Shown: positions 52,543 through 54,547 of the stretch, piece by piece
Layout of the letters: each line of letters starts with the position of its first letter
How positions within the stretch are numbered: position 1 is the stretch's first letter
Assembly: GCA_003054665.1 (NCBI GenBank)
Contig: QAYY01000020.1
Coordinates: 62,001 to 126,000 of the forward strand
Length of the DNA stretch: 64,000 nucleotides
DNA from: Opitutaceae bacterium EW11
GTDB taxonomy: Bacteria > Verrucomicrobiota > Verrucomicrobiia > Opitutales > Opitutaceae
Direction: 5' to 3'
The notes under the pieces: generated by a model
Database searches by the model: none
Seen by the model: only the letters and a program-made list of their open reading frames with translations
What the model was told of the DNA's origin: nothing
Position numbers and translations under genes: made by a program

Positions 52543-53928
52543 TCAACTTTGATCGAAACCCAGATTCTCCGGGACGCGTTTCGCGGGGCGCGTCGGCATC
52601 TTGGTTGTCGGCACGGTCTGATCGACGATCTCGAATTTGGGGTCGTTGAACCAAGCCTGCCCTTCGCCCGCGATGAAGAATCCGAAGTAAATCCCCTCGG
52701 CCTCGTTCGGTACGTCGAGGACCACGGCGTAATTCTTCCAGTCGGTCGTTCCCTTGGGCGCACGACCTTGAAGATTGTCGAATGCCAGCACGCGCGAACC
52801 CAGTCCGCTCAGCCCGTCGACGCGCATCCAGACGTTTGCGGAGCGCTCGATGGCCTCGGTCTTGATCCAGGCGCTGAACCGGACGCGTTTGCCCCGGTAA
52901 TCCTCGGCCGAAATGCTCTGCATGAAGCCGCCGAAGCCGGGCGCGTCGGGCACGATGGACTTGATATAAGCGCTCACCGGTTTCACGTGCGGCTGCGAGC
53001 GATCGAGTCCGACGGCGTACCCTTCCGCTCTTTCTCCGTTCTTCTGCCATCCAGCCGGCGCCGAGGTGGTCACGGTGTCGCCGACCGTCGACGGCTTCGG
53101 CGTATCTGCCGCACGTGCCGGCCGCGTCAGCGCGAGCACGGCGACTATTGCCAGCAACCCTGATCCCGCCACCACCGACCACGAGGTCGAGGTCCGATAT
53201 TTGGCTATCATCTGAATTCTCCTTTTGAGTTGTTGTTTGTTTTCGAAGATCCCGACGGCTGCCGGAGATCCGCCTTGTCCGCCGACGACTCCCAGGACCT
53301 TCAGGAGAGCGGCACCGTACGCGCACGCCTCTGCAGAAGGCGCGCGGCGCATGACAAATTCGTCGCAGGCATGCTCACAATCGAGCCGGGCCGCCCGGGC
53401 GCCCAGCCAGACGAGCGGGTTGAACCAGTGGACGATTCGCGCCCACTCGAGCAGGCCGAGCGCCCAGGCATCCCGGCGCTTCCAGTGGCCCAGCTCGTGA
53501 CGAAGAACCCAGTGAAGTTCTTCGTCGGATACCGCTCCTGCGAAGCCCGCCGGAATCAGGATCCGGGGCGCCCACGTTCCGGCCACGGCAGGGGCGGAGA
53601 CACCCGAGGAGACCACCAGCGGCACCTCGCTCCGAATCGACAATTCGGATTTAACCCGCGCCAACGCCCGCATCAGCCGATTCTCAGGGAGCATTCTTCC
53701 CCTCGCGACGCTCCGCCAGAAAACGGCGATCTTCGCCGCCCGAAGGCACGCCAGAACCAGGACTCCGCCCATCCACGCCCAGCCGAGCACCGCGCCAGGT
53801 GTGGCTCGCAGTGGAAGCGGGCCAGGCCGCGCGGCCACCTCGTTGGCAAAAGAAAGCGACTCATCGGGACCCGCTGCCCCGTCGCCCACGCCCGGCATCT
53901 TCGTCGCGACAGACCGGCTCTTCGTCAC
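52543..53928 (-). CDS. M56 (BlaR1-like) membrane protease, main part of a split gene
   Basis: 461 residues if it starts at GTG 53928, which overlaps the stop of the upstream 68-residue frame (GTGA). It has a membrane helix (about 48-63), the zinc-protease motif HELGH (144-148) in 'VLRHELGHWKRRDAW', the third-ligand region 'CEHACDEFV' and a last membrane helix (about 250-268; 'SVVAGSGLLAIVAVLAL'). Residues 280-461 form a beta-rich exported domain resembling carbohydrate/galactose-binding modules ('YRGKRVRFSAWIKTEAIE', 'GIYFGFFIAGEGQAWFNDPK'), not a penicillin-binding sensor. The first two helices normally present in BlaR1 are encoded by the preceding frame, so the protein is either two subunits or a frameshifted gene. 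Open codons upstream of 53928 are not protein-like. Confidence 0.8.
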   Translation of the reverse strand: MTKSRSVATKMPGVGDGAAGPDESLSFANEVAARPGPLPLRATPGAVLGWAWMGGVLVLACLRAAKIAVFWRSVARGRMLPENRLMRALARVKSELSIRSEVPLVVSSGVSAPAVAGTWAPRILIPAGFAGAVSDEELHWVLRHELGHWKRRDAWALGLLEWARIVHWFNPLVWLGARAARLDCEHACDEFVMRRAPSAEACAYGAALLKVLGVVGGQGGSPAAVGIFENKQQLKRRIQMIAKYRTSTSWSVVAGSGLLAIVAVLALTRPARAADTPKPSTVGDTVTTSAPAGWQKNGERAEGYAVGLDRSQPHVKPVSAYIKSIVPDAPGFGGFMQSISAEDYRGKRVRFSAWIKTEAIERSANVWMRVDGLSGLGSRVLAFDNLQGRAPKGTTDWKNYAVVLDVPNEAEGIYFGFFIAGEGQAWFNDPKFEIVDQTVPTTKMPTRPAKRVPENLGFDQS

Positions 53929-54131
53929 GGCACTCCGAGCGGGCTCCAGGCGACTCGCACGGACACGGGGACGATCAGGGCCAGTCCAAGCAGCACCCAC
54001 GCGACAAACAGCATGCGCGCCGGTATGGATCGTCCCACGACACGACGCACCAGAAGCAGCAGGAGAATCATCACGCCGCCGCGCAGCGAGGCGGACAGGA
54101 ACGCACCGGCAAGCACATGAAAGACGTTCAC
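53925..54131 (-). CDS. N-terminal two-helix fragment of the BlaR1-like protease
   Basis: 68 residues from GTG 54131, which overlaps the BlaI stop (GTGA). It encodes two hydrophobic helices ('LSASLRGGVMILLLLLVRRV' and 'ARMLFVAWVLLGLALIVPVS') and ends 'WSPLGVP' at TGA 53925. This is exactly the N-terminal part expected of an M56 antirepressor. The downstream frame is shifted by -1 and begins with a GTG overlapping this stop. Either it is a separate subunit translated by coupling, or a single-base indel or frameshift has split the gene. Confidence 0.7.
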   Translation of the reverse strand: MNVFHVLAGAFLSASLRGGVMILLLLLVRRVVGRSIPARMLFVAWVLLGLALIVPVSVRVAWSPLGVP

Positions 54132-54506: not shown

Positions 54507-54547
54507 TCCTACAAATGTAGGAGGAGACATGTCCTACACTTGTAGGA
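54507..54547 (-). promoter_or_regulatory. Twin BlaI-type operators
   Basis: Two 16-base perfect palindromes, TCCTACA-AA-TGTAGGA (54507-54522) and TCCTACA-CT-TGTAGGA (54532-54547), are spaced 25 bases centre to centre. The TACA-N2-TGTA core is the known BlaI/MecI recognition pattern. They end two bases before the repressor start codon, so autorepression is expected. Confidence 0.88.

Follow-up and report, generated by a model that had tools for sequence, protein, structure and literature searches.

A frame break at the start of an extracellular loop in a BlaR1-like protease gene of Opitutaceae bacterium EW11, probably a recent indel or an assembly error

How does the gene of a membrane protease come to lie in two reading frames that meet in a stop codon overlapping a start codon, and is such a junction a device or an accident? 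This question is raised by an operon in a stretch of 64,000 nucleotides from Opitutaceae bacterium EW11, referred to here as the window. The initial annotation had considered three explanations for the split, namely a three-gene coupled operon, a programmed frameshift and a recent one-base indel; its span, 52543-54131, omits the repressor, which is a member of the operon. The reading preferred here, with a probability of about 0.8, is that the BlaI-M56 operon is an ordinary one whose protease has a CBM-like outer domain, that its frame has been broken by a recent indel or by an assembly error, and that the break is maybe partly rescued by reinitiation. The features of the locus are collected in Table 1.

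Table 1. Features of the BlaI-M56 locus, in window coordinates.
Feature	Position	Strand	Basis
Candidate BlaI-type operator palindrome, TCCTACACTTGTAGGA (+ reading)	54532..54547		genome pattern search
Second candidate BlaI-type operator palindrome, TCCTACAAATGTAGGA, immediately before blaI	54507..54522		genome pattern search
BlaI/MecI-family repressor, 125 aa	54128..54505	-	Pfam Penicillinase_R, 121 bits
GTGA stop/start overlap, repressor to M56 gene	54128..54131	-	repressor TGA / fragment GTG
M56 N-terminal fragment, TM1 and TM2, 68 aa	53925..54131	-	GTG start, TGA end
GTGA overlap at the frame break, where extracellular loop EL1 begins	53925..53928	-	sequence; S. aureus BlaR1 alignment
M56 remainder: EL1, TM3, HELGH, TM4, C-terminal beta domain	52543..53928	-	461 aa if GTG 53928 is the start
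HELGH zinc motif	53485..53499	-	sequence
C-terminal beta-sandwich domain, residues 301-435, CBM-like fold (predicted)	52624..53028	-	AlphaFold2 model, Foldseek, VIA-align

As read from sequence, the 68-aa and 461-aa pieces make up the opposite ends of a single M56 domain. It had been claimed that TM1 and TM2 lie in a 68-codon frame ending at 53925, and this frame (54131-53925) indeed matches positions 3-50 of Pfam Peptidase_M56, with 22.8 bits and an E value of 6.1e-5, below the cut-off of 31 bits. The further claim, that the rest of the protein, with HELGH, lies in the -1 frame and can start at a GTG overlapping that stop, was likewise confirmed (53928-52543). This second piece matches positions 101-296 of the same model with 158 bits (cut-off 31) and thus combines an M56 domain with a HEXXH motif, as in a BlaR1-like sensor protease. 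The different frames and the stop at 53925 keep TM1-TM2 and the protease from forming a single chain. The protease frame is open far upstream of GTG 53928, with a stop-to-stop frame of 610 aa, so this GTG is a possible start that is not forced by any stop. From the start of the M56 domain to HELGH, there are 210.7 codons in the window and 211-218 in five full-length relatives; this nearly normal spacing indicates that no other part of the gene is missing. The repressor scores 125 bits with NCBIfam BlaI_of_BCL, under the model cut-off of 180. A second BlaI-M56 pair of the same genome is located on contig C11, and its M56 match is in one frame.

The operon can be compared with BlaR1/BlaI of S. 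aureus (PDB 8EXP-8EXT), with which it shares the repressor partner and the membrane metalloprotease core (profile match with E 1.1e-17 over residues 13-318). The window model aligns with the BlaR1 core in VIA-align with a Z of 16.9 over 193 residues and an rmsd of 3.0. Unlike in S. aureus, the protease gene is broken after TM2, there is no beta-lactamase among the ten neighbours scanned, and the C-terminal sensor is modelled as a short CBM-like beta domain that has no Pfam match. With NCBIfam blaR1_generic, 113 bits are obtained and the equivalog cut-off of 400 is not reached; the split takes TM1-TM2 out of the scored protein. A penicillin-binding sensor domain was sought in the C-terminal 205 residues, and no Pfam match was obtained at E values up to 10. 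AlphaFold2 confidence over residues 301-435 is 61-84 per ten-residue block, but 50 and 41 at 371-390. The domain resembles structures of CBM16, CBM4 and CBM22 and a domain of GH101 enzymes, with Z values of about 10-11 by Foldseek and VIA-align; its identity to CBM16 is 12-14%, and a weak sequence match to an endoglucanase is also seen. According to the model, it is likely to be the outer sensor domain, and a CBM-like fold would by itself be no proof of sugar binding. Matches to this domain that lack the protease part also occur in other genomes of the family (for example G068, G206, G201 and G174); they cover query residues ~258-460 only, in frames of 224-278 aa.

A BlaI-type repressor, preceded by two near-perfect palindromes as putative operators, stands next to the protease gene. 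The core TACANNTGTA is found 4 times in the 6.4-Mb genome, twice at this locus, and its reversed-core control 11 times, so the core alone is without genome-wide enrichment. The fuller pattern CCTACANNTGTAGG occurs at 2 places genome-wide, both at this locus (control 1). What is noteworthy is the pair of boxes before blaI and the restriction of CCTACANNTGTAGG to this locus. Counted irrespective of placement relative to blaI, a TACANNTGTA box is present in 18 of 21 loci, or 16 of 19 without L096 and L097, which are the same DNA as L006 and L036. Three of the five full-length relatives (L006, L034 and L036) have boxes; among the 21 loci examined, they are absent at L005, L037 and the genome's own second locus, L002. 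The presence of boxes before blaI here and in the relatives' loci makes it likely that the operon is autoregulated, and the regulon may be small.

The initial annotation had remarked that both junctions of the operon have the same GTGA. The letters are indeed the same, but the two junctions do not represent one pattern. Repressor and M56 gene meet in ATGA or GTGA in 19 of 32 relatives' loci, and in TTGA in one more; with such an overlap at the equivalent place in relatives, the first junction is ancestral. The second is new, and was found in no relative among the five full-length ones and the family genes listed or fetched. These five (L005, L006, L034, L036 and L037) are 41-52% identical to the window protease and share with it the order of BlaI, ATGA or GTGA, and M56, as well as the C-terminal domain; they differ in having one continuous frame from TM1 to the end. 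L035, cut off by a contig end, was left out of this set. A continuous frame in all relatives had been named at the outset as one of the findings that would refute the idea, and it is what the five relatives and the family survey, as listed or fetched, display, so the indel or assembly-error reading is favoured.

The wider family comparison gave the same picture. Among the matches listed from 252 family genomes, five other genes have their M56 match in two stretches, and each of these pairs carries the mark of a single frame, which the window's pair lacks. In the hydropathy table, the window alone has both strong helices, TM1 and TM2, out of frame; they lie 202 and 172 residues ahead of HELGH, compared with -205 and -175, in frame, in L051. 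The window's own genus is absent among the 57 genomes listed. A scan of genome contigs with the window protease alone confirmed no relative, one with an alignment as the query yielded 79 loci, and a copy of the junction was not found in viral contigs. No report of a split M56 or BlaR1 gene was found in the open PMC literature, by titles and abstract openings among the matches listed.

The -1 relation between the fragment and the protease part is what a programmed ribosomal frameshift, producing a fused protein, would need. However, no slippery heptamer of the form XXXYYYZ is present in the 207-nt fragment, and the RNA at 53855-53940, with pseudoknots outside the scope of the calculation, folds no better than its shuffles, 162 of 200 of which are as stable or more so (z +0.80). 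Such a frameshift was also not seen in the relatives, and it was rejected as extremely improbable. Of the three explanations first considered, it is thus the frameshift that fell away, whereas the indel, here widened to include an assembly error, came to be favoured.

A selected split is the next alternative. It proposes a three-gene coupled operon in which a TM1-TM2 chain and a protease-sensor chain are made through termination-reinitiation and assemble in the membrane. The GTGA at 53925-53928 is a stop/start overlap of 4 nt, which is one of the two commonest gene spacings and is suited to coupling (PMC10666635), and overlaps of the same type are found at six more junctions within the window. 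Known termination-reinitiation pairs have this 4-nt overlap too; they differ in being pairs of genes, with an enrichment of heteromeric-complex subunits, whereas the window has one ancestral gene split in a single genome (PMC6728339, PMC10666635). A GGAG lies 4 nt upstream of GTG 53928. Motifs resembling Shine-Dalgarno sequences precede 13% of the 46 called genes and 10% of 2983 random ATG or GTG triplets in the window (1-64000); being barely commoner before genes than at random, they are uninformative about this start.

How surprising the overlap is was estimated by simulation, one base being deleted at each position in the continuous genes of 15 relatives. The stop reached was overlapped by a start in the old frame at 56.9% of all 16,473 positions and at 51.6% of the 2,523 that belong to the TM2-TM3 linker. 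The overlap is frequent because most of the stops reached are TGA (87-89%), and the NTG before such a TGA is a start for any N other than C. Stops no more than 3 codons away were rarer, at 10.5-11.4%, and a near stop combined with an overlapping start made up 5.4-5.7% of simulated losses. Four real -1 breaks were identified by HMM, of which three (the window, L120 and L208) end on NTGA with a restart; in L120, this stop is far downstream of the break, and the fourth, L279, ends on TAA. The GTGA at the break is therefore expected by geometry, as a by-product of a -1 break ending on TGA, and is no selected device. With the overlap expected in about half of one-base losses and the split absent from all five full-length relatives, a selected split is considered unlikely. 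A three-gene coupled operon may still exist as a by-product of the break, and as such it is common to no relative.

The position of the break was also considered. The W-S-P end of the fragment aligns with about residues 55-57 of S. aureus BlaR1, which places the break near residue 60 in an alignment read by eye. EL1, which links helices 2 and 3 of BlaR1, comprises residues 56-96; a signalling role for it has long been hypothesized (PMC9834060). A chain break in EL1, outside the membrane, would leave two membrane pieces that could still associate, and this would suit a selected split, as would the intact state of both pieces, in neither of which decay is seen. The break falls in a region that is weakly conserved in the relatives' alignment. 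The fragment and most of the protease part have a third-position GC of 0.76; the first 47 protease codons have 0.72 and the training genes 0.75, values that suit a recent event. By codon statistics, the protease frame scores about zero over its first ~47 residues, and the third frame scores slightly above the others at ~53944-53899; composition alone would thus allow more than one small change. Homology, through GVGxG in A1, backs the protease frame from ~53892.

In one variant of the preferred reading, the true gene is continuous and the break is an error of assembly or sequencing. The sequence comes from a single draft assembly in 45 contigs, the rest of the gene is intact, and the relatives' frame is continuous. 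Against this, four equal bases in a row occur just once within 53900-53970, at 53967-53970, so that no run of at least four lies within 35 bases of the junction and an assembly error is left without an obvious cause. Further, Pfam revealed no obvious two-frame gene among 40 other window frames, which is an insensitive test (3 of the 40 had no match). An error is a real possibility, though less likely than not.

Broken M56 genes were also looked for elsewhere. From 264 loci, 246 distinct M56 genes were obtained, of which 16 are broken, nine by frame changes and seven by in-frame stops; the loci were chosen by best match, and many of them chiefly for a match that lacked the N-terminus, which makes this fraction an overestimate of the natural rate. 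The breaks are distributed from TM1 toward the end of the domain. Besides the window, frame changes affect L120, L125, L208, L226, L252, L278, L279 and L288, and in-frame stops affect L060-L063, L107, L161 and L225; the junction sequence was inspected in all of these other than L107 and L225. L278 and L279 have TM1 and TM2 out of the HEXXH frame, with breaks farther along the domain, and fall outside the window's class. Before the last loci were added, the HMM followed TM1 to HEXXH in one frame in 160 of 217 distinct genes; many of the others have N-termini too divergent for it, and only some were checked by hydropathy, which skipped loci without a recognised HEXXH (2 of 79 in one set and 15 of 80 in another). 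The hydropathy exceptions are L064, L083, L093, L103, L168, L203, L210, L213, L214, L224, L228, L264, L265 and L267.

L060, L061 and L062 (G225, G221 and G224), all of one genus, have one in-frame TAA each, all at different places. In L224 (G540:C33:69412-70895), a BlaI-like N-terminus (PRISETEWEIMRVVWARSPLTAAE) is joined directly and in frame to the HEXXH region of M56, which gives the impression that the part between them was lost. In L278 (G613:C2:55095-56787), from a 5-contig genome, the M56 domain is spread over three frames, like that of a pseudogene or of a stretch with several errors.

Among the 246 distinct genes, only one other has the window's geometry. In L208 (G312:C294:6624-8455), from another Verrucomicrobiota family, the order is repressor, TM1-TM2 fragment, ATGA and TM3-protease. 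This likeness is a point for a selected split. The genome of L208 is in 520 contigs and 74% complete. Within its family, the best match to the protease part is 44% identical, which does not allow the split to be shown as conserved there either. It is regarded as quite improbable that a BlaR1-type sensor protease is made here in two coupled parts, one a hairpin of TM1-TM2 and the other a chain with TM3, protease and sensor, separated within EL1, with L208 as an independent second case.

Under the preferred reading, the unbroken system would operate by analogy with BlaR1/BlaI: the outer CBM-like domain would bind a signal and activate the inner HELGH protease, upon which the repressor would be removed from the two upstream palindromes. 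A net change of -1 at the start of EL1, between TM2 and TM3, either recent or present only in the assembly, would then make ribosomes terminate at 53925 after TM1-TM2. As the stop overlaps a GTG, reinitiation by some ribosomes may yield a separate chain with TM3, the protease and the sensor, and the break may be leaky instead of null. Several observations were counted against this explanation. The stop is only a few codons from the break, in a loop structurally tolerant of two chains, and the combination of near stop and overlap arises in only ~5% of losses. The undecayed pieces, the lack of a run of four at the junction, the order in L208 and the GGAG before the GTG were counted likewise, as was the S. 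aureus gene: in blaR1 typed in representative strains, no frameshift was found (PMC3102608), so the protease cannot simply be taken to be dispensable.

The locus holds a caution. In GC-rich genomes, the stop that ends a -1 break is often a TGA overlapping a start codon, and a neat GTGA between the halves of one ancestral gene does not by itself speak for a designed split. Were the two-chain reading nevertheless true, EL1, the loop proposed for BlaR1 signalling, could do without covalent continuity; and if L208 were an independent case, this would suggest that EL1 tolerates, or even gains from, cutting.
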